Source: a virus
Length of the DNA stretch: 37,880 bases
IMG/VR virus record: IMGVR_UViG_3300035681_000062
Location: 1 to 37,880 of that record
Direction: 5' to 3' (one strand)
The notes beneath the pieces were generated by a model that ran no database searches, was not told the DNA's origin, and saw only the letters and a list, made by a program, of their open reading frames with translations. The translations under genes and the position numbers were made by a program. Shown here one piece after another: positions 7,449 through 37,880 of this stretch (position 1 is the stretch's first letter; the number at the start of each line of letters is the position of its first letter).

Positions 7449-8738
7449 TCAGTAGGCGCTAATGCCGGAGGGGGTGGCGGACGGGAACACGATGGCTTGA
7501 CGACGCAGGTCGGTCGCAGCCCAGTTCCACTCCACGTCGAGGTACGACCCGTACACGTCCGGGGTGTTCCACGCGGGAGTGATCTTGCGCTCGCGGAACC
7601 AGTTGAGCTTGTGCGCAACCGGGAACAGCGAGTCGCGGCGGTGCAGGATCGCGCGCGGACCCTTGGCGTCGCCTTGGCCTTCGGTGACGAGAGTGGTGTT
7701 CGTCGCGCCGGCATAGCCAGCGTACGTGTCCATCTCAGGCCACCACTCGACCGGCACGCCGCCCACGATGGGATTCGTGACGTTCGGATCGCGGCGGTCG
7801 GGAGCGACCCAGATGTGCTGGGTGTTCACGACGGCCTGGATCAGGTCGAGCAGCTTGCCCGACGCGTACCACACGCTGTCCGCCGTGTTGCCCTTGTACT
7901 CGAAGCCCGAGAGCATCGTGTTCGGGATCGACGTCGGCACTTGGAACGACGTCTCGCGCAGCGCACGCAGCATCGCGTTGAAGAAGCCGGTGCCGGTGTT
8001 GTCGATCGTGCTGTAGCTCACTTGGCGAGGCACGAGCACGTTGCGACCGTTCGGAGCCACGAGGCCCGCGTCGTTCACGTTCAGGCCGAACTTGGTCGTC
8101 CAGCGGCCGTTCACGATGCCCGCGGTGTTGTAGTCCGTGCCGGCCGAGCCAGCGGTCAGACCCGTCGCGGTGGTGATGCCGAAGCACGCATTGAACCACT
8201 CGTTCACGAGCGCCATCAGCGACGTGACTTGCGTCGGCTTCGACTGCGTGCGGTCCTCCATCGTGGTGAAGTTCGGGACCGCCGACGTCATCTTCTCCAG
8301 CTTGTTGGCGAGAGTGACGGCGCGTTCGGCTTCCTTGTTCTTCTTCGTGCTGGAGAGGCGATCGTAGAAGAGGTCCCAGCGACCGGCTTCCGCCAGCGAC
8401 GTCAGGCCCTCGTTCTTCTCGATCTCGGCGTCGACCCACGCCATGTCCTGATACATCAGGATGATGCGTTGCGAGCCGATGCGGATGTTGTCGGTGCGCG
8501 ACAGCGAGCGCAGGCCGCCGGGGTTGATGACCTTGAGGTCGTTCCCCTCCTTCGGGTTGAACTGGAAGTCGAACTTGTCGCCCCCCACCATCCCGAGTCG
8601 GTACGCGGCAGCGTCCGTGAAAACGTACTTGTTGAGGCCCTGCATCGGCAGGGGCTGGTCGCCCTTGACGATGTGGGTAGTGCCAGTTACGGCGTTGAAG
8701 TTCAGCAGTGCAGACTGGATCAGGCCATCGACGGCCAT
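7449..8738 (-). CDS. Major capsid protein
   Basis: 429 residues, ATG at 8738 behind the strongest ribosome site of the operon (AGGAGGTG, 4 nt before the ATG), as expected for the most abundant virion protein. The N-terminal arm is followed by mixed alpha/beta sequence with GTGFFNAMLRALRET, then a C-terminal part with VEWWPEMDTYAGYAGA and VYGSYLDVEWNWAATDLRRQ. This pattern is familiar from phage capsid proteins. It directly follows the scaffold gene and is followed by head and tail genes. The assignment combines resemblance and order; the fold (HK97 type) is assumed. Confidence 0.82.
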   Translation of the reverse strand: MAVDGLIQSALLNFNAVTGTTHIVKGDQPLPMQGLNKYVFTDAAAYRLGMVGGDKFDFQFNPKEGNDLKVINPGGLRSLSRTDNIRIGSQRIILMYQDMAWVDAEIEKNEGLTSLAEAGRWDLFYDRLSSTKKNKEAERAVTLANKLEKMTSAVPNFTTMEDRTQSKPTQVTSLMALVNEWFNACFGITTATGLTAGSAGTDYNTAGIVNGRWTTKFGLNVNDAGLVAPNGRNVLVPRQVSYSTIDNTGTGFFNAMLRALRETSFQVPTSIPNTMLSGFEYKGNTADSVWYASGKLLDLIQAVVNTQHIWVAPDRRDPNVTNPIVGGVPVEWWPEMDTYAGYAGATNTTLVTEGQGDAKGPRAILHRRDSLFPVAHKLNWFRERKITPAWNTPDVYGSYLDVEWNWAATDLRRQAIVFPSATPSGISAY

Positions 8739-12378: not shown

Positions 12379-14163
12379 CTAGTAGTACCTCGCGCGTTGC
12401 GTTCCCTGGCCCTGGTCCATGATGGCCCTCAGCCGCTCCTCATCCGCCCCGCTCATTGCGATGTGCGGCGACACCGAGCGGATCAGGTTCTGCGCCGGCC
12501 GCATGTCGCGGTCGATCTTGAACACGTCCATGCACAGGTAGCGTAGCGCGTCGCAGCCGTCGTCGAAGCCGCGCTTCTTGTCGGGGACTGGCAGGAAGCC
12601 CTCGGGCCGATTCGGGTCGGGCGCGAACTGGTAGGTGAGGATCTCCTCGTGCAGGCCGATCGGTGCGCGCTTGTGCCGCAGCGCCTCGTCGGTCGGGCCG
12701 TAGTGCACGTCGCCGAACAGGAACAGCCGATCTTGCGCGAACATCGTGTTCACGAGGTCGATGCCACCCTGAACCCAGTCCTTCGTCTGGCGCGTGTTGT
12801 CGGCCGCTTGGCAGATTTGCCCGACCTTGCGGCCCTGCGCGCGATGGCCCAGCCGCTCGTTGAACAGCTCCCAGATCGCCCGCGCGCTCGGGTCGCACAG
12901 GATCGCCTCGATGCGGTACAGGTCGACCAGTTCCTTGACCTTCTCGGCCCACCAGTCGATCCCGCGGTCGTGGAAGTGGACCTCGGCGATGCGGAACAGC
13001 TTGCCGCACGCTGACACCGCACCGACTTGCAGCGAGCCCGCGTGGCCGATGGCCCAGTCGAAGCCCGCGACGACGGACTTCACACCGAGGCGCTGCGGTT
13101 GCCCGCTCGGCGTGCGCCAACTGTCGATGACCAGCGTCGCGCCGCCCGTCGCCGAGTCGCGCTCGAACAACCCGCGCACGATGTGGCGCTTCGGGTCGTA
13201 TGCCTTCCAGCACCGGCCCTGCACGCTCATCCACTTGCCCTCGTAGTACACCGAGCGGTAGGGCTCAGGCAGCGAGCGCAGGCCCTCGAGGTACTCGTGG
13301 TCGATGGCGGGGTTGTCGCGGTGCGTCGCGGTCACGCGCACCATCTGCCCGCGGCTCTGCTCAAAGCGGCGCACGAGCCAATGGTTCTCGCCGTGCACGA
13401 TGGACGGATTGCACTCGGCGACCATCTGACGCCAGAACAGAGGCGTCCCGTAGTCGTCCTCGCCGTCGTGGACGTGCAGCACGACCCCGTTGCGGCGCAC
13501 GTCGCGCTCGCTGAACCGCTCCGTCATCGTGAGCACTTCGCTCACGGTCTTCCCCGCGTGCTCGCCGTCCGTGACGATGCCGTCGGGATACTGACAGTGC
13601 GGGTGAGGGATGCCGCGCCCACGCATGCGGGTCTTGATCGTGTTCCAGTGGTGCTCGGCGATGCGCTCGTTCGTCGCCTCAAGGAACAGCACCAGATCCC
13701 AGTCGGTCGACAGGTAGAGCTCGATGCGGTCGACGCCGCCGAGCTTGATGTGCGCGCCGTTCGTGCGCTCGCCGTTCGCGCTGACCGGGCCGTTCAGGTA
13801 GTCGTAGGTCGTGCGGTGATCGCGCGAGCCGCCGCGCTGAAGGATCTCGCTGTCGAGCCCGATGACGAACGACTCGAACAACGGCTGGAACGACTCGCGC
13901 AGCGACTCGCGGGTCTCGCGCAGGATCAGCATGCGCGCCTGCGGGTACTTCGTGCCGATCGCATGCACGCGCACGCTGTCGGCGAACGTCTTGCCCGTGC
14001 CCGCCGCGCCTTCGTACAGGACTTCCTGGAAGCCCCACAGGCACTGCGGGTCGCGCTCGCCGTCGTAGACCGTGCCCGATGGCCCGCGCGTGCACGTGCA
14101 GCGCAGCAGGAGCTTCCCAGTGCCAACGAGCCGCAGCTTGCGGCGCTGCTCGATGGCGACCAT
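12379..14163 (-). CDS. terL: Terminase large subunit (packaging ATPase and nuclease)
   Basis: 594 residues. The ATPase half has Walker A GAAGTGKT at residues 52-59 and a Walker B strand at 155-162 (WDLVLFLE, with E162 as catalytic carboxylate). The C-terminal RNase H-like nuclease shows FDW (D369), CDPSA (D424) and FDDGCDAL (D534, D535, D538). It pumps DNA through the portal and cuts it. ATG at 14163 overlaps the previous stop (ATGA). The N-terminal RCTCTRG motif is unusual; otherwise length and motif order are normal. Confidence 0.93.
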   Translation of the reverse strand: MVAIEQRRKLRLVGTGKLLLRCTCTRGPSGTVYDGERDPQCLWGFQEVLYEGAAGTGKTFADSVRVHAIGTKYPQARMLILRETRESLRESFQPLFESFVIGLDSEILQRGGSRDHRTTYDYLNGPVSANGERTNGAHIKLGGVDRIELYLSTDWDLVLFLEATNERIAEHHWNTIKTRMRGRGIPHPHCQYPDGIVTDGEHAGKTVSEVLTMTERFSERDVRRNGVVLHVHDGEDDYGTPLFWRQMVAECNPSIVHGENHWLVRRFEQSRGQMVRVTATHRDNPAIDHEYLEGLRSLPEPYRSVYYEGKWMSVQGRCWKAYDPKRHIVRGLFERDSATGGATLVIDSWRTPSGQPQRLGVKSVVAGFDWAIGHAGSLQVGAVSACGKLFRIAEVHFHDRGIDWWAEKVKELVDLYRIEAILCDPSARAIWELFNERLGHRAQGRKVGQICQAADNTRQTKDWVQGGIDLVNTMFAQDRLFLFGDVHYGPTDEALRHKRAPIGLHEEILTYQFAPDPNRPEGFLPVPDKKRGFDDGCDALRYLCMDVFKIDRDMRPAQNLIRSVSPHIAMSGADEERLRAIMDQGQGTQRARYY

Positions 14164-15037: not shown

Positions 15038-15516
15038 CAGCGGAACCTGAACTCGAAAGCGCCAACCTGAAGTGAATCGAAGCTGCCCGCCGCCGTGTCG
15101 AACGTCGGAGACGCGGGCGGCGTTCCGCTGAATGCGTCGCGCAGGATGCCGTGGTTTGTCGTGCCCTCACGAATCGCGATCGATAGCGCGTGGATCGTCT
15201 GCACCGCCGTCGCCGTTCCGAAGCCGACCACCACGGCGTTGCTCACTCGCGCGTTGGCCGTTCCGCCACCGGCCAGCGTCCACGAAGCAGTGTTGCGCGG
15301 GACGGCGACGGGGCCAGCGTAGCCCGCAAAGTCCGCCTGATTCGTGCTGAACGATCCGCCTTCGCCCGGGTCCGCCGTCTTGTGCAAGTTGAGCCGGAAC
15401 TCCGTCGGCGTCCACTGGTAGCCGGACTCCTCCCACGGCGGGCGCTCGTTGAAGAACAGCATGCGCAAGAACATCTCGCGCCAGTAGTACGTCGTGCAGT
15501 CGGTCAGCTCAGCCAT
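15037..15516 (-). CDS. Small tail or decoration-type protein (LHxADPGE pattern)
   Basis: 159 residues, ATG at 15516, overlapping the hydrolase gene end by 8 nt. The stretch FRLNLHKTADPGEGGSFST, followed by FAGYAGPVAVPR and later AVQTIHALSIAIREG, matches the layout of a widespread phage family. In that family an N-terminal helix precedes L.LHTADPGE.G, a GYAR-like element and a final beta sheet; members are usually annotated as tail or hypothetical proteins. I infer a trimeric or decorating structural role. Confidence 0.68.
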   Translation of the reverse strand: MAELTDCTTYYWREMFLRMLFFNERPPWEESGYQWTPTEFRLNLHKTADPGEGGSFSTNQADFAGYAGPVAVPRNTASWTLAGGGTANARVSNAVVVGFGTATAVQTIHALSIAIREGTTNHGILRDAFSGTPPASPTFDTAAGSFDSLQVGAFEFRFR

Positions 15517-16735
15517 TCGGATACCCCGCGTGTGCGACCGCCGCGTTGAACACTTGCTCGGCCCACGGCTTCATGAGCGGGCGAGCGCCGCCAGGATTGG
15601 CAAACGCGCCAGAGCTCGAGTTGACGCCCCAGCGCACTTCGCTCTTGCGGATCAACGCGCCCGCACTCGACCCGTAGGACAGCAGCGCATCGCGCCACGC
15701 ACGCGCTTGGAACGGGTTGTGCGGATCGCGCCACGCCTTGCCCGCAGTGCGCAGCGCCGCAGTCGGCAAGCGGCCCGGAACGAAGTCGTCGGGCGTGATG
15801 TTCGCTTCCTCGGGGATCACTTGGTTGGGCGGCGTCGTGCTGTTGCCTGAGTTCACGAGACCTGCAGGCCAGCGACACATGAACAACACGTCGGCCGTCT
15901 CGGGATAGTTGCGCTTGAGCATCCGCCACGGGTTCATGCGCTTCTCGGCGCTCGGCGTCGTGCTCCACTTGTCGCGCGAGTCAACGCGGTGCAACCACTG
16001 TGCGCGATCGCTCATGTAGATCTCGCCGAGCAAATAGCCCGGCTTCTGCGATGGCGTGAGCGGCTCAATGTCGAACTGCTCCAAGTCGGTCTGCGCCTCG
16101 TTCGTCGCCACGACCTTCATGCGGTGCGAGCTGCGCGGGACGTTGCCTGCGCGCCCGACGTACGGCGAGGCGAAGCGCGCCATCAGCGAGTCGGGCATGC
16201 ACGCGAGCATCAGCCCGATCGTGCCGCCCCACGAGTTGCCCAGGTACACGCCGAAGTTCGGGTTAATCGAGTTGCCCGCGCCGAGCAGCGTCGCGCCCAG
16301 CGTAGTCGTCGAGTCCGCGTTGTCCTTGATCTCCTGGATGCAGCGCCCCACCCAGAACACCGCATCCGGCCACATGGCCAGCGGGCGCAGGTCGTTCATG
16401 GGCGCGGTGCCCGAGAGGTTGCTCGCGTTGCCCGGGTAGTCGATCGAGAACACGACGTAGCCGCGCGCGATGAAGTGTTCGAGGAAGTCGTCGAACGCGC
16501 TCGCGTCGTACGCGCCGCGCTCGCCGGGATTGAAGCCCAGCCCGCCGCGCACGTGCAGCACCCAGCCCGCGCCAGTGAAGCTCGCGCTTGGACGCCAACA
16601 CGCGATCGAGCACTGGCCCGCCATGCCGCCAGACCAGAACACGCGGCGATTCGGCCCAGTCGCCGTGATTGCGCCGGGCGCGTCGCTCGTTGCGCGCGTG
16701 AAGGTGAACGCCGGGGGGCCAGGTGTGTAGACCAT
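15509..16735 (-). CDS. Alpha/beta-hydrolase-fold protein encoded among virion genes
   Basis: 408 residues, ATG at 16735 overlapping the previous TAA. An oxyanion-type HVRGG motif (61-65) precedes GFNPGERGAYDASAFDDFLE and a strand-turn YVVFSIDYPG. The nucleophile elbow is GNSWGG at 166-171, with S168 as the probable nucleophile (GxSxG). Candidate His and acid residues near 282-339 (DVLFMCRWPAG, DPHNPF) are less certain. The layout resembles prolyl-oligopeptidase or esterase-like enzymes. Being co-transcribed with structural genes, it may be a virion enzyme attacking surface esters or peptides; an alternative is a lysis esterase. No signal peptide was seen. Confidence 0.72.
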   Translation of the reverse strand: MVYTPGPPAFTFTRATSDAPGAITATGPNRRVFWSGGMAGQCSIACWRPSASFTGAGWVLHVRGGLGFNPGERGAYDASAFDDFLEHFIARGYVVFSIDYPGNASNLSGTAPMNDLRPLAMWPDAVFWVGRCIQEIKDNADSTTTLGATLLGAGNSINPNFGVYLGNSWGGTIGLMLACMPDSLMARFASPYVGRAGNVPRSSHRMKVVATNEAQTDLEQFDIEPLTPSQKPGYLLGEIYMSDRAQWLHRVDSRDKWSTTPSAEKRMNPWRMLKRNYPETADVLFMCRWPAGLVNSGNSTTPPNQVIPEEANITPDDFVPGRLPTAALRTAGKAWRDPHNPFQARAWRDALLSYGSSAGALIRKSEVRWGVNSSSGAFANPGGARPLMKPWAEQVFNAAVAHAGYPNG

Positions 16736-18693
16736 TACTTGTTCTGCGACCCGTTGTAGATGAACTCCCACTCGCGCGGGCGAAGCAGCACGGCGTTCTC
16801 AGTGCTCGCCGTCGCGATCGTCTGGTACACGTTCGACGAGTTGAAGCGCAGCGGCCAGCCCATGCCGTTCTTGGGGTTGTAGGGCGAGCGCGGATACCAG
16901 CCGTGGACGCCGGGAATGTTGATGTCGCCCGTGCCCGACGAGCCTTCGACCGCGCGCATCAGAACCGTAATGCCCAGGTGCTCCGTGAACAGGTTCACGA
17001 TGTCGCGCGCAACACTGTGCGAGCACGAGCGGAACGTGCGGTTCACGTAGGCCGAGCCCGCGGTGCCCGTGTGCGTCGCGCCACCGCCGCCGATGGTGAA
17101 GGTCGCCTCGACGTTGAACGTGTGCGTGCCCGTCGCGCCGTCGCCCAGCGGTTGCGAGATGTGCGTGATCTTGACCTCGAGCGAGAAGTTGACCGCGCCC
17201 GCGCCCGACACTGGATCGGATTGCAGGATCAGCACGGGGCCGACCGCGCCGTCGTTGTTGAGCTTGCCGCTGATCCACGTCTCGTCCTTGACCGTGGTGG
17301 CGATGCCGCCCACGAAGCCCGAGATGTTCGTCTGTCCGTTCGCCCCAGCGCCGATCGACGTGAGCAGCACGAGGTCGTCGCCGCTGCTGTTGTCCAAGTC
17401 GATCAGCACCGGCGTGATGGTTGCGCCAGTGCCTCCCGTCACCCACAAACACGCCGCGCCCAAGTCGCCGAGCCCGCTGCCCGCCTTCGTGAGCGTCTTG
17501 GTGCTCTCGGTGTAGGTCGCGCCCGTGAACGCTTGGTACGGGCCTTTCTCGAACCAGTGCGCAACGCTCGCGTTCCAGCCTGCAGACTCGTGCGCCCAGG
17601 GATCCCAGCCGTTCTTCTCGGCGTTGCAGAAGAACATCAGCAGCTCGATGCCGAGCGTTGCCGCGCCCCACGAGAGGTTCCCCGTCTCGCGGAACGTCAC
17701 GGTTTGCCCGTTCGTCCACGTGCCCGGCGGGATCGTGACCGAGGGCGTCAGGTACCAGTTCTGCTCCGTGTTGCTGCGCGCGCTCGGGAACGGCGCGTCG
17801 ATCGACACGAGCTGCGGCGCGTTGCACAGCCCGCCCGCGCTCTGGAGGCTCACGTACGGCCACCAGATGCCTCGTGAGCCAGCGGCCCCGCGCGTGCCCG
17901 TGTACGTCAGCTCGTGCGCGTCGCCGCGCTGGTCCGTGAGCATGTACACGCCGTCGGCGTAGTCCACGATGAACACGAGGTCGCCAGCCGCAGGCGTCTC
18001 AACGAACGTCGAGTACCCCGCGAGCGTGGGCGACGAGACAAGGTCGAGCGGGATGAACGGCGACTCGTTGTTCACGTCGTTCGCCGTACCCGCCGCGTTT
18101 CGACCGCCGTAGTAGTTGATCTCGGCGTGCGTCGTGTCCGTCGCGTTCACGCGGTAGATGAAGCACCCGGCCAAATCCTCGGGCGCAGGCAACGCCTTCC
18201 CGCCCGACGCGATCGCCTGCGTGTGCGGCCACACGATCACGCGGTACTCCACGTCTTCGGCAAGCGTGATGCGCTGGCGCGTGGCGTTAATCTCCGCCGC
18301 GGTTCCGCTGCCGCCAGATCCGCGCAGCGAAACGCGCATCTGCCGATTGCCCGTGTGCGATCCGCTGAGGTTGTACGCCGTGATGAACCCCTGGTATGCA
18401 GGCCCAACGTCATCGGCGTTCGTGTTGCCCAGCCGCAAGCCCACCGGCCCGCCGCTGCCCGCGTACGTCGTGCTCCCGCGCGTGACCGTGTCCGCAGTCC
18501 CGTTGAAGGGCGCGAGGCGCGTGTTGCCCCCGAAGAACACCACGTTCGCTGTGCCCGACGCGAGCACCACCGGGCGCGGGTCGTTCACGTCGGGGACGCT
18601 CATGTTCACGCGGTTCGCGGACGCGAGCAACGCCTCCTGCTCGCTCGTGCTCGTGCCGCCGTAGACCTCGGACTGCGAAACGGGACCGCTCAT
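16735..18693 (-). CDS. Large putative receptor-binding or fibre-type virion protein
   Basis: 652 residues from the ATG at 18693 (ATGA overlap with the previous stop). The sequence is almost entirely Gly/Thr/Asn/Ser-rich beta-type with aromatic patches: WWPYVSLQSAGGLCN, GTWTNGQTVTFRETG, NSSGDDLVLLTSIG, HTFNVEATFTIGGG. The C-terminus has GWYPRSPYNPKNGMG. There is no catalytic motif or collagen repeat. Size, composition and position next to a hydrolase and a BppU-N-like gene suggest a host-recognition or surface protein of the particle, but no family was recognised. Confidence 0.7.
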   Translation of the reverse strand: MSGPVSQSEVYGGTSTSEQEALLASANRVNMSVPDVNDPRPVVLASGTANVVFFGGNTRLAPFNGTADTVTRGSTTYAGSGGPVGLRLGNTNADDVGPAYQGFITAYNLSGSHTGNRQMRVSLRGSGGSGTAAEINATRQRITLAEDVEYRVIVWPHTQAIASGGKALPAPEDLAGCFIYRVNATDTTHAEINYYGGRNAAGTANDVNNESPFIPLDLVSSPTLAGYSTFVETPAAGDLVFIVDYADGVYMLTDQRGDAHELTYTGTRGAAGSRGIWWPYVSLQSAGGLCNAPQLVSIDAPFPSARSNTEQNWYLTPSVTIPPGTWTNGQTVTFRETGNLSWGAATLGIELLMFFCNAEKNGWDPWAHESAGWNASVAHWFEKGPYQAFTGATYTESTKTLTKAGSGLGDLGAACLWVTGGTGATITPVLIDLDNSSGDDLVLLTSIGAGANGQTNISGFVGGIATTVKDETWISGKLNNDGAVGPVLILQSDPVSGAGAVNFSLEVKITHISQPLGDGATGTHTFNVEATFTIGGGGATHTGTAGSAYVNRTFRSCSHSVARDIVNLFTEHLGITVLMRAVEGSSGTGDINIPGVHGWYPRSPYNPKNGMGWPLRFNSSNVYQTIATASTENAVLLRPREWEFIYNGSQNK

Positions 18694-19085
18694 GCTCGTG
18701 TGACCTCTTGCGAAAGTTCCCAGCGGCCCTGAACGAAGCGCGCGGTGTCGGTCTCGGTGCCCTCGGTGTCGAAGCGGTAGAGCTCCGCGTCCCATCGCCC
18801 GGCGCAGCACTGAGCCGGAAGCGTGCGCGTCACCGCGGCCGGGATGCGGAAGCGAACCGTGCGCGCCACCGGGTCGATGATCGTGCAGTTGATCTCGGCG
18901 AGGAATCCGTTCGTCGCGTCGGCGAAGTCGTTGCGCAACTGCGCGCGAACGAGGAAGCCCGTCCAGTTGATCGCGATGCCGCCCGTGACCGGGAACGTCA
19001 CCACATCAACGAAGTCAGAGCCCTGGAGAATCGCCCGACGCTTGCGCCGCGTCCACTCGTGCGCGTACGGGACGATGGGGCTCAT
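18690..19085 (-). CDS. BppU N-terminal-like small structural protein
   Basis: 131 residues, ATG at 19085 (ATGA overlap). The layout is a basic start, a GSDFVDVVTFPVTGG strand, then INWTGFLVRAQLRNDF, TVRFRIPAAVTRTLPAQ and a final RFVQGRWELSQEVTR. This follows the pattern of the phage beta-sandwich family related to BppU N-terminal domains (GD.F...V.F ... LTG..ARAQ.R ... LTA.QT..L..G.Y ... G...V...VTR). Such domains are small baseplate or fibre-attachment pieces. Here it probably joins the large neighbouring protein to the particle. Confidence 0.68.
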   Translation of the reverse strand: MSPIVPYAHEWTRRKRRAILQGSDFVDVVTFPVTGGIAINWTGFLVRAQLRNDFADATNGFLAEINCTIIDPVARTVRFRIPAAVTRTLPAQCCAGRWDAELYRFDTEGTETDTARFVQGRWELSQEVTRA

Positions 19086-20461: not shown

Positions 20462-20820
20462 CGCAGCTTGCGCTGGTCGGATCGCGGGTTGAACGCGGGC
20501 TCGATCGGCGTGTCGAGGTTCGCGCCGGGACCGGACCGCATGGCGCGCTGAACGGCGCGGCGATGGCAAGCGGAGCACTTCCCACAGCGGCACAGACGCG
20601 GAACTCGGCCACGAATGTCGGCAATCGTCGGGGGCCACTTCTCGCTCGCAATCCACTGCGCGACGGCGGTTTCGAGCTCGGCGGCCTCAACGTCGTGCAG
20701 CATTTCGAGCCACAGCGGCAGGGTCGCAGGGGCGACGTGGAAGCGGTCGGGGTACGCGAGGGCCAGCTTGGCGAGTGCGCGCACAGCGGCGGCTTCGAGG
20801 GGCGATGCGAGGTTGCTCAT
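20458..20820 (-). CDS. Putative helicase-loader-type replication protein with Cys cluster
   Basis: 120 residues, ATG at 20820 (ATGA overlap). Residues 15-75 (LAKLALAYPDRF, LPLWLEMLHDVEAAELETAV, WPPTIADIRGRV) follow the pattern of phage helicase loader/inhibitor proteins of the G39P type (LW..ML.d...e....A...w......PPTiadIR). A Cys cluster at 77-86 (CRCGKCSACH) could bind zinc. The neighbouring DUF1376 protein supports a replication role: recruiting the host replicative helicase to the phage origin. Confidence 0.62.
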   Translation of the reverse strand: MSNLASPLEAAAVRALAKLALAYPDRFHVAPATLPLWLEMLHDVEAAELETAVAQWIASEKWPPTIADIRGRVPRLCRCGKCSACHRRAVQRAMRSGPGANLDTPIEPAFNPRSDQRKLR

Positions 20821-21668
20821 GGGAGGTCCAGGGCTGACTGTCGGAGGATGCGCAGGCTTTGCTCTGCCGAGCCCGCAGCCTGCGAAGTGCGGCGCTCGTC
20901 GGGGTAGTGGATGCCCTGCCAGTTGCCGGCGATCGAGGCCTCGACGGCAGCGGCGAATCGGTCGGGGCCTTCGCGCAGTGCGCGGTTGAGGATCGCGGCG
21001 GCGGCAAGCGCTGACGGCGGGCGGGCTTTAGCTCCAGCCGTGCCCGTGTGCTCGATCCAGACCGCCCAGGCTCGCGCGAAGGTCGGGTGCGTGGACATAC
21101 GGGCGTACTCGGGGCGGGCGAGCACGGACTCCCAGCCCTCGTCGGGCTTGCGGCGTGGAGCGCGCTTCGCAGGTTGGGGGGCGGGGTCACCCCCTGGAAG
21201 GGGGGTAAGGGGGGTTTGTACTTCCCTTCCCTTCTCCATCCCAATCCCAATCCCTTCAGAAGGCATAGCCGCGGCAGTGCCGTGGGAGTGCCGCGGCATA
21301 GCGTTGGCATCGGACCCCTGTTTTTCGGCCCGCCAGCGGGTCCAGCGGGTTGTTGCCCGGGCCGATTGGCGCTGCGACTGCTCGTCGGCGAGCTTGCGCT
21401 CGAACTCCAGGCGGGGATTGCGACGCCTCCCATCGGGGTCCACCGGGAACTGTCCGAGCACGCGCTCAAGGTCTGCGGCATCTGCGCCGGCAATGCGCTG
21501 GCAGAGCCGCCGCACTGCCGCGGCATCGGGCGGCAAGCTGCCGGTCTCCCACTGGCGGCACAGCAGGAACAGGTACACGCCGACGTCAGCCGCAGTCATC
21601 AGCTCCACGGCCTCCGCTGACCAGAAGTCGCGGGAGTAGAACAGGAACGCGGGCCGAGGGTCGTTCAC
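20817..21668 (-). CDS. DUF1376-domain replication initiation protein
   Basis: 283 residues from a GTG at 21668 (GTGA overlap). Residues 6-60 (RPAFLFYSRDFWSAEAVELM ... GVYLFLLCRQWETGSLP) are a clear DUF1376 signature, a winged-helix-like domain common in phage and prophage replication proteins. A Pro/Gly-rich linker (120-165) is followed by a helical C-terminal domain (PTFARAWAVWIEHTG, NRALREGPDRFAAAVEASIAGNWQGIHYP), the typical second half. It probably binds the phage origin and works with the loader-like protein downstream. Confidence 0.75.
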   Translation of the reverse strand: MNDPRPAFLFYSRDFWSAEAVELMTAADVGVYLFLLCRQWETGSLPPDAAAVRRLCQRIAGADAADLERVLGQFPVDPDGRRRNPRLEFERKLADEQSQRQSARATTRWTRWRAEKQGSDANAMPRHSHGTAAAMPSEGIGIGMEKGREVQTPLTPLPGGDPAPQPAKRAPRRKPDEGWESVLARPEYARMSTHPTFARAWAVWIEHTGTAGAKARPPSALAAAAILNRALREGPDRFAAAVEASIAGNWQGIHYPDERRTSQAAGSAEQSLRILRQSALDLP

Positions 21669-32956: not shown

Positions 32957-33621
32957 AGGAATCCGACCTCGGAGCGCTTGTCGTGGAGTGGCTCCACCGC
33001 GACGGCTGGGAGGTTTGGCAAGAGGTGCAGGTATCGGCCGGCTGCCCGCGCGCCGATATCGTGGCGAAGCGTGGGCCGGCGCTTGCGGTTGTCGAGTGCA
33101 AGATGTCGCTCTCATTCGACGTGCTAGACCAAGCGTCCGCGTGGGCAAGCGCTGCGAACGTGTGCTACGCCGCGGTGCCGTTTTCAAAGCGCCCGCACGT
33201 TGTTGGGCGCGTCCTTCGGCACCTAGGCATCGGGTTGATAACGGTTGCGCGGCCTGACTATCGCGAGTCAACGGTTGACGACGTGCGGCTTTCGGAGCAA
33301 GCAGAGTTTCGCCGCAGGACGCCAAGCCGCGACAGGTTGCTTGCCGCGCTGCGCGAAGAGCACAAAACATGGCTTGCTGCTGGCAGCAAGGCCGGAGGTC
33401 ACTACACGCCGTTCACTGCGACGTGCGCGGAAGTGCTCGCAAGAGTCAAGGCAAGCCCTGGAATCCAAACGAAGGCGCTCATGGACGGGATCTCTCACCA
33501 CTACAGATCCGACGCGACCGCTCGAAGCGCGCTAACGAAGTGGGCGCAGCAGGGCTCGATTCGAGGCGTGACGGTGAAGCGCGAAGGCAAGCACCTAACT
33601 TGGTGGCCGCAGGGGGCGTGA
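32953..33621 (+). CDS. PD-(D/E)XK nuclease-like protein with C-terminal winged helix
   Basis: 222 residues from a GTG. Residues 7-62 give the nuclease core: EWLHRDGWEVWQEVQV (E24), CPRADIVAKRG (D35), ALAVVECKMSLSFDVLDQA (E48-x-K50, Q60). This is the layout of restriction-endonuclease-like folds. Residues 160-215 (ASPGIQTKALMDGISHHYRS, ARSALTKWAQQGSIRGVTVK) look like a winged helix that could guide DNA binding. It lies two genes before RusA. It may process branched or foreign DNA; the exact substrate is unknown. Confidence 0.72.
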   Translation: MKESDLGALVVEWLHRDGWEVWQEVQVSAGCPRADIVAKRGPALAVVECKMSLSFDVLDQASAWASAANVCYAAVPFSKRPHVVGRVLRHLGIGLITVARPDYRESTVDDVRLSEQAEFRRRTPSRDRLLAALREEHKTWLAAGSKAGGHYTPFTATCAEVLARVKASPGIQTKALMDGISHHYRSDATARSALTKWAQQGSIRGVTVKREGKHLTWWPQGA

Positions 33622-33624
33622 GGC

Positions 33625-33816
33625 ATGGCAAACCTCCTCTACCGCTGGCTCGACCGCAGAGGCCGCATCCCGCCCTGGGTCCGCTGGATCTACAAGGACG
33701 CCCACTGGTGCGAGGGGCAAGACCACGCGCTCGTTCTCGACTTGGCGCACTGCGCTTGCGAGCGGCGCAATGGCACGACCGACCACGACTACACGAACGA
33801 GAGGAAGCCGTTTTGA
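33625..33816 (+). CDS. Hypothetical 63-residue protein
   Basis: ATG at 33625, 3 nt after the nuclease stop, with a GTGAGG ribosome site. Trp/Arg-rich first half (YRWLDRRGRIPPWVRWIYKD) and a small Cys/His group (HWCEGQDH, LAHCACERRNG). It ends inside the TTG of the RusA gene. No family was recognised. Confidence 0.6.
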   Translation: MANLLYRWLDRRGRIPPWVRWIYKDAHWCEGQDHALVLDLAHCACERRNGTTDHDYTNERKPF

Positions 33817-34325
33817 GCGCCCCCGAACTCACCATCTGGATTCCCGGCACGCCCGCGCCCCAGGGCTCGCTCAAGGCCGTGCGACGTGGAGCGCACGCGC
33901 GCCTCGTCAGCGACAACAAGCGCACGATGCCGTGGCGCGAGACGATTCGCGCCGTGCTGCGCGCCAACGGTCGCGGGCACGAGCTTCTCGACTGCCCCGT
34001 CTACGTCTCGCTCGCGTTCTACTTCGAGCGCCTCAAGTCGCACTACGGCAAGCGCGGTCTGAGTCCGAGCGCGCCCTTCGCGCCCACGGCCAAGCCCGAC
34101 CTCGACAAGCTCGTGCGCGCAGTTGGCGACGCGCTCACTGGCGTCGTGCTGTGGGACGATTCGCGCATCGTGGACGTGAGAGCGCGGAAGCACTACGTAG
34201 ACGGCACCGTGCGCACTGAGCCCGGCCTGCTCTTGAGCATTGAGCCGCTTGACCGCACGGGATGCCCGGTTCGCTGGGATCGCGCAGGCCGCCGCGACGC
34301 GCGCACGGGGAGCGTGGTGCAGTGA
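33813..34325 (+). CDS. rusA: RusA-family Holliday-junction resolvase
   Basis: 170 residues from a TTG at 33813 that overlaps the previous stop (TTGA), with GAGGAAG upstream. The motif set is complete: IPGTPAPQGSLKAVR, PWRETIR, VYVSLAFYFERLKSHY, KPDLDKLVRAVGDALTGVV (D96, D98) and LWDDSRIVDVRARKHY (D115, D116, K126). The enzyme cuts Holliday junctions made by the YqaJ/RecT system or during replication. It has about 30 basic residues beyond the usual C-terminus. Confidence 0.9.
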   Translation: MSAPELTIWIPGTPAPQGSLKAVRRGAHARLVSDNKRTMPWRETIRAVLRANGRGHELLDCPVYVSLAFYFERLKSHYGKRGLSPSAPFAPTAKPDLDKLVRAVGDALTGVVLWDDSRIVDVRARKHYVDGTVRTEPGLLLSIEPLDRTGCPVRWDRAGRRDARTGSVVQ

Positions 34326-34471
34326 GCAAGCGCGACGATCGAGAATACGAGGCTTGGTACGCCTACATGCGCAGCATGTACACGCCCGACCAGATCGAGC
34401 AGCTGGGACGCGACACGTGGATTGGTTGCGGGCTGTTCGTCCTACTCTTCGTCTGGATCGCGCTCGCCTAG
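34322..34471 (+). CDS. 49-residue single-pass membrane protein
   Basis: GTG, GTGA-coupled to rusA. The charged N-terminal part (KRDDREYEAWYAYMRSMYTP, DQIEQLGRDTW) is followed by one membrane helix at the C-terminus (IGCGLFVLLFVWIALA). Tail-anchored topology is likely. It could be a holin-like or membrane-anchor protein; nothing in the sequence decides. Confidence 0.6.
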   Translation: MSKRDDREYEAWYAYMRSMYTPDQIEQLGRDTWIGCGLFVLLFVWIALA

Positions 34472-34473
34472 CC

Positions 34474-34815
34474 ATGACCTTCCACCTCATCCCCGAGAAC
34501 GACGAGCACGAACACGTCGAAGATCCCGGCGGCATGTGCCCGTGTCTGCCCGTGCGCGACGCGACGCCAGGGCTCGCCGATACGCTGTGGCTCCACAACT
34601 CCTACGACGGCCGCGAGCTACGCGAGGTTGTCGAGCGGGCGCTGACCATGCTCGGCTGCGCGTTGACCGAGCACGGACACCATTGGAGCCCGAAGCTACG
34701 CCAGCAATTCGAGATCGCGTCCGACCTGATCGCGCGCCACATGCCTAACCTCGTCGGATACGAACGGCTCAGCGACGATGACCGCGCGGCGTGCAAGAGC
34801 GCTGTGCGAGAATGA
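34474..34815 (+). CDS. Hypothetical 113-residue protein
   Basis: ATG at 34474, 2 nt after the membrane-protein gene. Acidic, His-rich start (FHLIPENDEHEHVEDPGGMC) with CPC, and a helical remainder (ELREVVERALTMLGCALTEH, QFEIASDLIARHM). The early His/Cys group could bind metal. No family was recognised. Confidence 0.62.
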   Translation: MTFHLIPENDEHEHVEDPGGMCPCLPVRDATPGLADTLWLHNSYDGRELREVVERALTMLGCALTEHGHHWSPKLRQQFEIASDLIARHMPNLVGYERLSDDDRAACKSAVRE

Positions 34816-34871
34816 CCACGCCCACCCCCGCCGCGTCTGGCGTGGGGCCAACAACGCAGGAGAACCAATGA
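34812..34871 (+). CDS. Possible 19-residue coupled micro-ORF
   Basis: ATG at 34812 overlaps the previous TGA, and its own TGA (34869-34871) overlaps the next ATG, both as ATGA. The peptide MTTPTPAASGVGPTTQENQ is Thr/Pro-rich. It may only carry ribosomes across the 52-nt gap to the next start, which also has its own AGGAG. Too short to judge by coding statistics. Confidence 0.35.
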   Translation: MTTPTPAASGVGPTTQENQ

Positions 34872-35158
34872 CCGCAACACCGTCCCGTCGTCAACTCAAG
34901 ATCGCCCAACGTCAACACGCACGCGCCACCGCGCCCGGCCGCGAACTGATCGCTGTCTACGCGGACGCCGTGCAGCCGATCCCGTCCTACGGGGCGAAGC
35001 GAGACGAGGTGCTCAAGTTCCGCCAGTCGCTCAACAACCTGCGCGGCGTCGTCAAGGCGCACGCGCTGAGCATCCCCTCGCCCGTGCATCCCTCGGGACT
35101 GTCTCGCGTTGGCCGTCGTCGCGCGAAGGCTCAGGCGCGGAAGGCGGTGGCGCAGTGA
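34868..35158 (+). CDS. Hypothetical basic 96-residue protein
   Basis: ATG at 34868 with CAGGAG 7 nt upstream. Basic at both ends (PSRRQLKIAQRQHARAT; RVGRRRAKAQARKAVAQ) with a central IAVYADAVQPIPSYGAKRDE. Possibly nucleic-acid-binding. No family was recognised. Confidence 0.62.
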   Translation: MTATPSRRQLKIAQRQHARATAPGRELIAVYADAVQPIPSYGAKRDEVLKFRQSLNNLRGVVKAHALSIPSPVHPSGLSRVGRRRAKAQARKAVAQ

Positions 35159-36099
35159 GTGGACCCAACTTCGCCCCGCCCAAGATCAAGGGACCGCTCA
35201 AGGCGAGCGGCGCGATCTTCATTCCCAAGGGCACCAAGAACTACGAGCTACGCAAGACGCACATCCGCTACCAGGGCTACTGGGCGGCGCTCATCGACCA
35301 CAACGAGCCGCACGACAACGACGTGCTGGAGGACGTGCGCATCGAGTGCTTGCCGCCCACGACGCCCACGGACAATGACACGATGAGCAAGTGGGGCATC
35401 CGCCGCTACAAGTGCTCGGGCGTGCGCCGTCGCGTCTACGTCTCGGGCGCGTGGATGGAACACTCCGACTACGAGAGCACGGGGGTGAGCGACCTCACCT
35501 ACGAGGACTGCCTGTTCGAGAACTGCGGCGCGCAGGGACTTCAGTTGCGCCACACGGGCAACCGCGCGGACCCCATGTGGAACGTCAAGCGCACGCTGCG
35601 ATTCACCGACGTGCGCATCAGCGAGTGCGGCCAGGCGCGAGGCGTGGGACGCGCTGGCTTCTCGTTCACGATCTTCGACCAAGGACCGCTCACGGACGTG
35701 CGCATCCGTGGCCTCAACGTGCGCACGAAGGACGCGGGCGTGGTCGTGGTCAAGAACGGACGCCCCTACAACTCGTTCGGCGGCGTGCTCGTGGGCTACT
35801 GCCGCTCGCTCAAGTGGAACGGGGGCTACGTGGGGATGCTCAACCCCGATCGCAACCCCGTGCAGATCTACCAGCCCGAGATCAAGGACGCGCCGACGAG
35901 CGGTCCCGAGCACATCGAGATCGCGGGCGTCCACCTCGACTACGGGAACAACCTCGCCATCACGCGCCACCACGACACCGTGGACATCCGGCGCATGAAG
36001 GGCGACGGGCGCATCCTCGTGTACGAGCGCATCAGCCCGACCAAGTGGATCCTCGCCGAGAACGTGCCGCTGGCGAACGGGTACAGGAGGGGCGTGTGA
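35155..36099 (+). CDS. Right-handed parallel beta-helix protein
   Basis: 314 residues from a GTG (GTGA-coupled). Short coils repeat through about 55-280 with alternating strands and turns: LEDVRIECL, IRRYKCSGVRRRVYVSG, LTYEDCLFENCGAQGLQLRH, LRFTDVRISECGQ, LTDVRIRGLNVRTKDAGVVV, HIEIAGVHLDYGNNLAI. This is the pectate-lyase-like fold of many tail spikes and depolymerases. It lacks a capping head-binding domain and is encoded far from the virion genes. A spike attached by another protein, a released glycan enzyme, or a non-virion role are all open. Confidence 0.68.
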   Translation: MSGPNFAPPKIKGPLKASGAIFIPKGTKNYELRKTHIRYQGYWAALIDHNEPHDNDVLEDVRIECLPPTTPTDNDTMSKWGIRRYKCSGVRRRVYVSGAWMEHSDYESTGVSDLTYEDCLFENCGAQGLQLRHTGNRADPMWNVKRTLRFTDVRISECGQARGVGRAGFSFTIFDQGPLTDVRIRGLNVRTKDAGVVVVKNGRPYNSFGGVLVGYCRSLKWNGGYVGMLNPDRNPVQIYQPEIKDAPTSGPEHIEIAGVHLDYGNNLAITRHHDTVDIRRMKGDGRILVYERISPTKWILAENVPLANGYRRGV

Positions 36100-36344
36100 G
36101 CGATCCCAGCCGCCCCCTCTTGCTCGCGCACGGCGGGCTCATGTTCAACCCCGGCGAGCAGTACTCGTCCACAGACTACGAGGACTGCTACGTCAGCGAC
36201 CTAGCGTCCTGGCTTTTCTCCCGCTCCCGCATGGGCATCGTCGCGCCGCCGGGCACACCGCTCCGACACCGCCACAACCGCGCCCACGCCAACAAGCTCG
36301 CCCGCCACTCCAAGCGCCCCAACGGCAGACCGAAGCACCGATGA
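36096..36344 (+). CDS. Hypothetical 82-residue protein
   Basis: GTG with CAGGAGG upstream, coupled to the beta-helix gene. It begins SDPSRPLLLAHGGLMFNPGE, continues with an acidic Tyr-rich part (YSSTDYEDCYVSDLASWLFS) and ends in a basic tail (RHRHNRAHANKLARHSKRPN). The basic tail suggests nucleic-acid or surface binding. Function unknown. Confidence 0.62.
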   Translation: MSDPSRPLLLAHGGLMFNPGEQYSSTDYEDCYVSDLASWLFSRSRMGIVAPPGTPLRHRHNRAHANKLARHSKRPNGRPKHR

Positions 36345-36613
36345 TCTCCACCATCCAAGAATCCACCTCCGCCAAGCGCGAGCGCGTGATCCAGCGCATG
36401 AAGGAGCGGCACCGCACGCTAGACGGGCAGACCGTGATCGGCGTGCAGGTGTTTCAGCGTGTGCGTCCCACATACGGGCGCGGCAGCACGTGGCTTGAGC
36501 ACTGGCACGTCATCTACTCGGGCGGCGACGTGCGCACGTACGAGCGGCTGGAGCCCGACGACTACAAGACCGTGCCGTGCGGGTACGTGATCGGGGGCGC
36601 GCGTGGAAACTGA
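36341..36613 (+). CDS. Hypothetical 90-residue protein
   Basis: ATG, ATGA-coupled. A basic helical start (SAKRERVIQRMKERHRTLDG) is followed by a compact beta part (VIGVQVFQRVRPTYGRGSTW, HVIYSGGDVRTYERLEPDDY). No family was recognised. Confidence 0.62.
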   Translation: MISTIQESTSAKRERVIQRMKERHRTLDGQTVIGVQVFQRVRPTYGRGSTWLEHWHVIYSGGDVRTYERLEPDDYKTVPCGYVIGGARGN

Positions 36614-37166
36614 CCCGATGACCGTGGAGCGTGCGCCGCACTACTGCCAGGACGGTCACGCGCCAGTCCGTTTTTGGCGCGACACGGAACCGGAAGAGCT
36701 GGCGTGTCCCGCGTGTGACATTGCAAGCCAGCTTGAGCGGGCGCAAGGCGAAGGCGAAAACCTGCGCGCCCGCGTGGCCGAGCTTGAGCGCGAGCTAGCT
36801 CAATGGACGCTTCGCTGCGCCGAGGCCCGCTCCGTCGCGCGCGAGTGGGAAGTGAAGTGCGGCGAGCTTGAGAGCGAAAACGCGAAGCTGCGTGATGCTT
36901 TGACCGCGCTGCTACCGCTCGCGGACTGGGCGCTGCTGGAGCAGTCGCCGCCGGGCGCGGACGACGCGCTCGTCGATGCTGCACGTGCTGCGCTACGCAA
37001 AAAGGTCAGCGCGCCCCGTATGCGCTACCCACTCGCGCCGATCAAGGTCGAGTGCGCGCATGGCTATCCCGTCGCGGAGATCTTCGACTGCCGCTTGTGC
37101 GCCGCCGCCCTCGCCGCGCAAACGAAAGCGCCCCAGCCAGGAGAGCCGGGGCGCAACGAGGGCTAA
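36603..37166 (+). CDS. Zinc-ribbon and coiled-coil protein, last gene of the rightward array
   Basis: 187 residues from a GTG at 36603 (an ATG at 36618 would remove five). HYCQDGHAPVRFWRDT and LACPACDIAS give Cys/His pairs at the start. About 45-100 is a coiled coil (LRARVAELERELAQWTLRCA, CGELESENAKLRDALTALLP). A C-terminal CAHGYPVAEIFDCRLCAAAL forms a second possible zinc site. A 7-bp hairpin (37128-37154) lies over its stop region. Function unknown. Confidence 0.65.
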   Translation: METDPMTVERAPHYCQDGHAPVRFWRDTEPEELACPACDIASQLERAQGEGENLRARVAELERELAQWTLRCAEARSVAREWEVKCGELESENAKLRDALTALLPLADWALLEQSPPGADDALVDAARAALRKKVSAPRMRYPLAPIKVECAHGYPVAEIFDCRLCAAALAAQTKAPQPGEPGRNEG

Positions 37167-37229
37167 TCCAAGGGCGTACGCCCCCAGGCGATCCCCCGTG
37201 CGGTGGCGCGAGCCCGCCGCGCGATTGTC

Positions 37230-37284
37230 AAAAAAGGGGCCGAGCTAGGTCGCCAACCTTCTAGAGCGACAACCTAGCCCGGCC
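37230..37284 (-). terminator. Intrinsic terminator of the leftward array
   Basis: The inverted repeat GGCCGAGCTAGGT (37238-37250) with ACCTAGCCCGGCC (37272-37284) pairs over 13 bp with one mismatch. On the minus strand it is followed by TTTTTT (37235-37230). It lies 111 nt past the lipoprotein stop, so it should end transcripts entering from the right edge. Confidence 0.78.
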
Positions 37285-37290
37285 ATGTGG

Positions 37291-37386
37291 CCCACGTATG
37301 CGGCCGGAGACGTGGGGGCTTTACGCGCTCAGTCTAGCCCGCCGCGCCATGACGGGGCTACTTGCAGCCCTTGCCCTTCTTTTTCT
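37291..37386 (+). terminator. Possible plus-strand terminator elements in the convergent gap
   Basis: Two short hairpins follow the last rightward gene: CCCACGT/ACGTGGG (37291-37297, 37110 offset to 37310-37316) trailed by GGCTTT, and GGGCT/AGCCC (37355-37370) trailed by TTGCCCTTCTTTTTCTT. Either could end rightward transcription; neither is strong. The 228-nt gap 37167-37394 also has a 12-bp palindrome GGGCGTACGCCC at 37172-37183 and no credible gene. Confidence 0.4.
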
Positions 37387-37394
37387 TCAAGCGA

Positions 37395-37880
37395 TCACCC
37401 CCTTTCCGTGCGTGCAACCTCAGCCATCGCCGCGCCCTGCACGAACGCATTCGCCGCGCGCAGCAAGAACTCGATGCCCCTAGGACCGCCTGGGAGCCCG
37501 CCGCGCGCGTCCAAGAGCGCCTGGGCCTCGACGGTCAAGATCAGCGCCAACGTGGGCGAGACGCCAGCGCGCACGGCCACGGAGTACAGGTCCACGCGCG
37601 CGGGGTCCTCGATTGCGGTCAACGCCTGCGCGACCTCCAAGACCTTGTCCGCGTCCATGCCGTGCTCGACGGCGACGGCCCCGCACGCGGTTGCGATGAA
37701 CTCGACGCGGCCGAGGTACGCCTGCCACGTGGGCTCGTCCATGCTGGCAAGCTCGGTCGGCGTGGGCGGGCGGCGGGTGCCGTCGGGGGTGGTCACGCAG
37801 CCCGAGACCAGGCTGGCGACGAGGGCCACGCCCGCGACCAGAGCGACGGTGCTTAGGACGCGGGGGAGCCAGAACTTGTG
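37395..37880 (-). CDS. Lipoprotein of the leftward array, open at the right edge
   Basis: At least 161 residues in frame to the window end. KFWLPR precedes a hydrophobic run (VLSTVALVAGVALVA) and a lipobox LVSGC, so the protein should be exported and lipid-anchored at Cys. The mature part has PDGTRRPPTPTELASMDEPT and helical Ala-rich sequence to the end. A GTG at 37829 would leave too short a signal, so the true start lies outside or, if the genome is circular, at position 16. A late lipoprotein may act in lysis (outer-membrane spanin-like) or in exclusion; no spanin signature was seen. Confidence 0.7.
   Translation of the reverse strand, partial: HKFWLPRVLSTVALVAGVALVASLVSGCVTTPDGTRRPPTPTELASMDEPTWQAYLGRVEFIATACGAVAVEHGMDADKVLEVAQALTAIEDPARVDLYSVAVRAGVSPTLALILTVEAQALLDARGGLPGGPRGIEFLLRAANAFVQGAAMAEVARTERG

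Follow-up and report, generated by a model that had tools for sequence, protein, structure and literature searches.

When a phage genome encodes a beta-helix protein, the usual assumption is a tailspike or an auxiliary metabolic gene. The window, by which we mean the whole stretch of virus DNA analysed here (37,880 bases, GC 67.8%), encodes a protein of tailspike-like fold at 35155-36099 on the plus strand, opposite the strand of its terminase gene, and the locus raises the question of where such a protein works and on what. A preliminary description had suggested a secreted or late-attached depolymerase, or a beta-helix used inside the cell. The reading preferred here, to which we give a probability of about 45%, is that the gene encodes a single-chain beta-helix that is not part of the virion and works from the infected cell by binding or cutting host glycans, being membrane-anchored in one lineage and probably released by lysis in the others.

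The gene, its neighbours and its relatives

The open reading frame at 35155-36099 (plus strand, GTG start, 314 aa) is exactly as the preliminary description gave it. It is under purifying selection, and its dN/dS of 0.14 against a relative of 96% identity (L001, on contig G001) identifies it as a real gene. The two copies differ by 25 silent codon changes and 13 others, one of the 13 being the start codon (GTG in the window, ATG in L001).

Relatives were found by pattern scans of IMG/VR viral contigs, the last of which added no further contig. Besides L001 they are L021 and L022 on contigs G007 and G008 (56% identity each), L026 on G009 (51%) and L031 on G010 (40%). Between the L021 and L022 proteins, where one residue differs, the identity rounds to 100%, and the window and the five contigs represent about five lineages; G001 (22 kb) and G009 are fragments. 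A tblastn search of 50,697 annotated phage records with the window, L031 and L026 copies found no relative, giving two chance matches at E 9, and tblastn of plasmids found no relative of the beta-helix protein either. Back-translated patterns run against species genomes yielded none that was confirmed, in a search that required near-exact 8-mers and that distant cellular homologues could escape.

The window is divided between two strands. A minus-strand block reaches to about 22.2 kb and contains the terminase large subunit (TerL, 12379-14163, minus strand, phrog_2), which is the one virion gene that a family match identifies in the window and serves as the strand marker for the structural genes; the remaining large minus-strand ORFs, including those for portal and major capsid, are called structural from their position. 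On the plus strand, beginning at about 23.4 kb, come RecE-like and RecT-like genes, a RusA-like Holliday junction resolvase (33813-34325, plus), small ORFs and the beta-helix gene, so that the nuclease company described earlier is indeed there, with three small ORFs between the resolvase and the beta-helix gene. The last of these, a 96-aa ORF (34868-35158, plus), follows a leader with a stem-loop at 34826-34847 (plus), and its stop is overlapped by the GTG of the beta-helix gene. The stop of the beta-helix gene is overlapped in turn by an 82-aa ORF (36096-36344, plus), which is followed by a 90-aa ORF (36341-36613, plus) whose identity is 98% in G007 and G008, falling to 43% (over 69 residues) in G001. 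The third small ORF (36603-37166, plus), with weak coiled-coil-type matches only, is the final one ahead of a convergent junction at about 37.2 kb. At this junction lies a terminator-like hairpin with a T-rich tail (37128-37154, minus), a kind of site that is no commoner here than in shuffled sequence.

Overlapping starts and stops, together with the RecE, RecT and RusA genes, are the basis on which the plus-strand genes would form one 'early' operon. No sigma-70-like promoter was seen in 33600-37880. The GC3 of the beta-helix gene (0.93) is as close to that of the structural genes as to that of the early ones, and late or high expression of the gene is therefore possible.

Beyond the junction, the convergent neighbour at 37395-37829 (minus) encodes a lipoprotein-like protein that is kept at 90-99% identity in G001, G007 and G008 despite their differing virion genes, and it is possibly a lysis protein. 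Its G001 and G007 copies pass a home-made lipobox pattern; its window and G008 copies fail it.

The predicted fold and its conserved centre

In sequence searches the window copy has no match in Pfam, PHROGs, NCBIfam or PADLOC, and none in Pfam even at E up to 10; no catalytic motif, enzyme family, polysaccharide lyase family or glycoside hydrolase family is recognised in it. One of the six family members touches Pfam Beta_helix (E 0.0039), and full-length L031 scores E 0.0085 and 16.2 bits against the same family, below its cut-off of 25.9. The other Pfam match among the six, Trehalase_Ca-bi at E 0.033, is at chance level. Searching PDB sequences with a profile of the six members gave nothing at E up to 10, and searching them with the window copy alone gave two chance rows.

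Structure prediction is more informative. The best AlphaFold2 model built with the six sequences has a pLDDT of 86 and a pTM of 0.89, the five models spanning 71.9 to 86.0 in pLDDT; a model built from two near-identical copies (pLDDT 29) was discarded. Foldseek E-values for the model are weak, the best being 0.018 in the PDB and 0.0036 in BFVD, and nearly all of the best 50 of the 269 PDB rows are beta-helices to judge from their titles. VIA-align, run on 443 of the 445 chains that Foldseek ranked highest, gave Z-scores of 17.8-20.4 across its best 50 entries, covering model residues ~11-311, on a scale where the usual best Z is 7-8 for models without a clear match. The highest are the epimerase AlgE4 (2pyg_A; Z 20.4, rmsd 3.0, 238 residues aligned), PfbA (20.3) and the DpK2 tailspike (20.1); rows 1-13 lie within 1 Z of the top and count as tied, and RbmB and an alginate lyase come next, both at 19.2. 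Other matches among those listed are AlgE6, several tailspikes, phi29 gp12, DFA-IIIase and NosD. On the AlphaFold2 model and these alignments, the prediction of a right-handed parallel beta-helix (pectin-lyase-like) fold is firm. It is the fold that had been claimed from the sequence, and no other fold was predicted.

Since 13 rows are tied, the fold gives no specific hint of a substrate. The mannuronan C-5 epimerases and alginate lyases (AlgE4, AlgE6, 6kfn) are among the top matches, with Z of 19.2-20.4, but are 10-12% identical to the window protein. The protein shares the beta-helix fold of the AlgE A-module, a likeness that is unspecific because other beta-helices tie with it. The motif YG(F/I)DPH is the catalytic motif of AlgE-type epimerases; this AlgE/AlgG motif is not found in the window protein, which has no DPH.

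In the model the helix starts at about residue 11-15 and extends to about residue 311 of 314. A helix filling residues ~11-311 leaves no room for a head-binding or a trimerisation domain. Both the N-terminal head-binding or anchor domain and the C-terminal trimerisation or chaperone domain expected of a tailspike are absent from the model, and the earlier remark that the head-binding domain is missing is thus confirmed.

Conservation is concentrated in the middle of the chain. Across the six sequences 91 of the 314 positions are invariant, with 56 of 141 in residues 100-240 and 35 of 173 elsewhere (p 0.00017). The invariant residues include R132, H133, N136, R137, D139, W142, N143 and E157, and further R162, R166, D175, N230, D232, R233 and Q237. 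This central cluster, whose residues are placed by sequence and not by coordinates, looks like a ligand site. A separate enrichment of invariant residues outside the strands is not significant (28 of 58 non-strand against 28 of 84 strand positions in residues 99-240, p 0.08).

Position relative to the virion genes

In all six contigs the identified virion genes are on one strand and the beta-helix gene is on the other. The strand of the virion genes is marked by TerL in the window, G007 and G008, by tail genes in G001, by TerL, connector and tail genes in G009, and by portal and major head protein genes in G010. The preliminary description had the gene opposite all structural genes; this holds for TerL, and the minus-strand block, which includes a primosomal-like gene at 20817-21668 (minus), is not purely structural. 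The beta-helix gene stands near the end of its own strand's block, three ORFs before the junction in the window and as the last gene before the junction in G009. Upstream of it the window, G001 and G010 have a RusA gene and G009 has another endonuclease; a search of G007 and G008 at E 1e-4 detected no RusA.

The genes around it are far less constant than the gene itself. Among 56 window ORFs, a few of which are alternative starts of one another, it alone was detected in all five other contigs (tblastn, E 1e-4). TerL and the putative portal and major capsid proteins, assigned by position, have 25-28% identity in G007 and G008 and were undetected by tblastn in G001, G009 and G010, and of the window ORFs in 22-22182 only a hydrolase-like one was detected in any of these three contigs (in G010, 25%). 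G001, a 22-kb fragment, is the clearest single example, with a beta-helix protein 96% identical to that of the window and nothing of the minus-strand block that the window carries up to 22182. The virion genes of G001 are of long-tail type (Phage-tail_3, Rcc01698_C), whereas G009 carries a PF12236 head-tail connector and G010 a phrog_156 portal; the virion genes of G009 and others we take to be T7-type or short-tailed. Only G001 clearly has a different tail type; short tails combined with diverged genes may be common to the window, G007/G008, G009 and G010.

These arrangements bear most directly on the alternative that the protein belongs to the virion as a receptor-binding spike or a depolymerase, is encoded by a displaced gene and docks on a tail adaptor through a short N-terminal peptide. 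Secondary spikes of some podophages do dock by short peptides, and the peptide ahead of the helix contains a PP pair that is invariant in all six copies. The fold is common to many tailspikes: DpK2, Sf6, CBA120 TSP2 and phi29 gp12 are, like the window protein, phage-encoded right-handed parallel beta-helices, and they match its model at Z ~18-20. The GC3 value, which resembles that of the structural genes, would also suit a virion protein, and spikes do move between short-tailed phages, to which four of the five lineages may belong. Against a spike stand the opposite strand in six of six contigs and the 96% copy in a contig with long-tail virion genes, since a spike fitted to an adaptor is not expected to travel between such dissimilar phages. 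Unlike the tailspikes, moreover, the modelled protein has no anchor domain and no C-terminal trimerisation domain, and one homologue, L031, bears a predicted lipoprotein signal, which favours a role in the envelope over attachment to the virion. We consider a displaced spike rather unlikely.

Three observations concern the surroundings of the gene on single contigs. Upstream of L026 and on its strand, the genes at 130-642 and 639-1436 look by eye like possible virion or binding proteins, with no significant family match, and tell against the reading preferred here. In G010, a small HNH-endonuclease-like gene (L031:10040-10315; phrog_4590, Pfam HNH just below its cut-off) separates the beta-helix gene from the structural genes. 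Downstream of the beta-helix gene of L001, from ~11994 on the plus strand, a frame that is absent from the gene caller's list resembles a DNA cytosine methyltransferase by eye (GFPCQD).

Leader, export signal and site of action

In L001, L021 and L022 a common leader, with a stem-loop and AGGAG, stands just ahead of the ATG of the beta-helix gene. The window has the leader too, but there it precedes the 96-aa ORF 34868-35158, for which tblastn gave no match in any of the five other contigs and which now occupies the leader and start region that serves the beta-helix gene in the three relatives. From this arrangement of sequences, an insertion probably separated the leader from the beta-helix gene in the window. 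The leader hairpin was rejected as a strong RNA structure, its folding energy being not below that of shuffles in three of three cases.

Secretion by a signal peptide, which the preliminary description had allowed for, is not borne out for the window copy: no signal peptide was seen by eye in the protein or in its upstream open frame, and the lipobox pattern does not match it. A visible signal peptide is absent from five of the six copies, so that reaching a glycan would require lysis or another route. The exception is the L031 copy, of 387 aa, in which a basic start, a hydrophobic run and LAGC are followed by a linker of ~55 residues and then by the helix, and which is thereby predicted to bear a lipoprotein signal. 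Of 7,721 starts tested across the six contigs the lipobox pattern matches 9, lying in 5 ORFs that include the L031 beta-helix gene; the pattern is imperfect, matching a probably chance ORF in G009 and missing the G008 copy of a lipoprotein that it matches in G007. The L031 extension has a coding-like GC content by codon position. No Shine-Dalgarno-like site precedes its ATG, and translation from either of two in-frame starts further on, at 8656 and 8683, would yield a leaderless protein, for which reasons export of L031 stays a prediction.

The five leaderless copies agree with a second alternative, an intracellular beta-helix that is expressed with the recombination genes and has a job unrelated to glycans, for example blocking a host defence or binding nucleic acid. 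Its neighbours, nucleases and small ORFs, would fit such a role, as would its charge, which is basic in all six copies (pI 9.0-9.4; 9.2 in the window). The L031 copy, predicted to be exported and lipidated, speaks against it; so, to a small degree, does the missing PADLOC match of the window copy, in a library of defence proteins that has little bearing on anti-defence. A version acting as a DNA mimic is contradicted by the basic charge. All in all we judge a non-glycan role inside the cell unlikely.

The third alternative is a superinfection-exclusion protein, whose envelope-anchored form would mask or alter a receptor as Llp of T5 and Ltp of TP-J34 do. Llp and Ltp are smaller, of other folds and not known to be beta-helices. 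The predicted signal of L031 would make this homologue a phage-encoded lipoprotein like them, and phage-encoded exclusion lipoproteins are described (PMC3952083; PMC9586334). The window copy, in contrast, has no lipoprotein signal, five of six copies have no leader, and we judge superinfection exclusion very unlikely. Exclusion by a lysogen was set aside, as a tyrosine integrase (PF00589), the one integrase type searched for, is absent from all six records, which are possibly incomplete.

A pentapeptide-repeat DNA mimic, a class characterised by an acidic surface and successive A(D/N)LXX repeats, was rejected, the window protein having no such Pfam match at E up to 10 and a pI of 9.2; 6fls matches the window copy at chance level (phmmer E 2.6, Foldseek E 0.57).

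The preferred reading, a beta-helix outside the virion that acts on host glycans, is favoured by what the fold usually does, by the missing spike domains, by the location of the gene away from the virion genes and by the anchor predicted for one homologue. The conserved centre (residues ~100-240) would form the groove in which a host glycan is bound and probably cleaved or modified, and as the protein is basic this glycan is possibly anionic. The L031 form would work from a membrane. In the window and the other relatives the protein would be made in the cytosol and would most likely act once lysis opens the cell, release by lysis being the simplest route for a leaderless form to a glycan. Trimming of surface glycans could then free progeny from debris or prevent their waste on a dying cell, and a change of the receptor while infection is under way would be a further possible effect of the anchored form. 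The more specific proposal, that the protein is a glycan-modifying enzyme for receptor trimming or progeny release, comparable to the neuraminidase of influenza virus, existing in cytosolic and lipid-anchored versions and kept beside recombination genes by phages with dissimilar particle genes, is tentative, and we would not yet lean on it. As a whole, then, the earlier interpretation keeps its fold, its missing head-binding domain and its location, all of which hold in the relatives, and loses signal-peptide secretion of the window copy.

There is precedent among bacteria for such helices as free glycan enzymes. According to PMC7949094, WceF of Pantoea stewartii is a Tat-exported EPS hydrolase of tailspike-like fold and VexL of Achromobacter denitrificans is a monomeric beta-helix hydrolase of capsule. 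Both are non-virion beta-helix glycan enzymes, and WceF matches the window model at Z 17.8. However, WceF is bacterial, a Tat-exported trimer that has head, neck and C-terminal domains, whereas the window protein is phage-encoded and leaderless and has one domain. No report of a comparable non-virion phage beta-helix appeared among titles and the opening lines of abstracts in open-access literature, of which coverage was partial. In the present family the fold stands apart from the virion genes through its position in six of six contigs, through the dissimilar particle genes that accompany it and through the predicted anchor in one lineage. If host glycans are indeed cut from inside the infection, searches for depolymerases that concentrate on virion proteins would overlook phage enzymes of this kind.

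Some minor observations concern the structural strand. The window ORF 15509-16735 (minus) encodes an alpha/beta-hydrolase-like protein, with GNSWGG recognised by eye and Pfam matches at E 0.063-0.077 only; its G010 homologue matches BD-FAE at E 2.1e-5, below the cut-off. The hydrolase-like protein is on the structural strand in the window, G007/G008 and G010 and was not detected in G001 or G009, both of which are fragments. A de-esterifying protein on the virion and a beta-helix glycan enzyme would fit together, by association only. Within 15509-19085 (minus), the fibre-like, hydrolase-like and third proteins have 46-59% identity in G007/G008, against 25-28% for TerL and the putative portal and capsid; by this comparison the region seems to be a host-contact module, exchanged or conserved separately. 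Finally, in the near-identical contig G003 a very long frame (L015:1-3258) extends the structural strand past the left end of the window and perhaps encodes a large internal virion protein.
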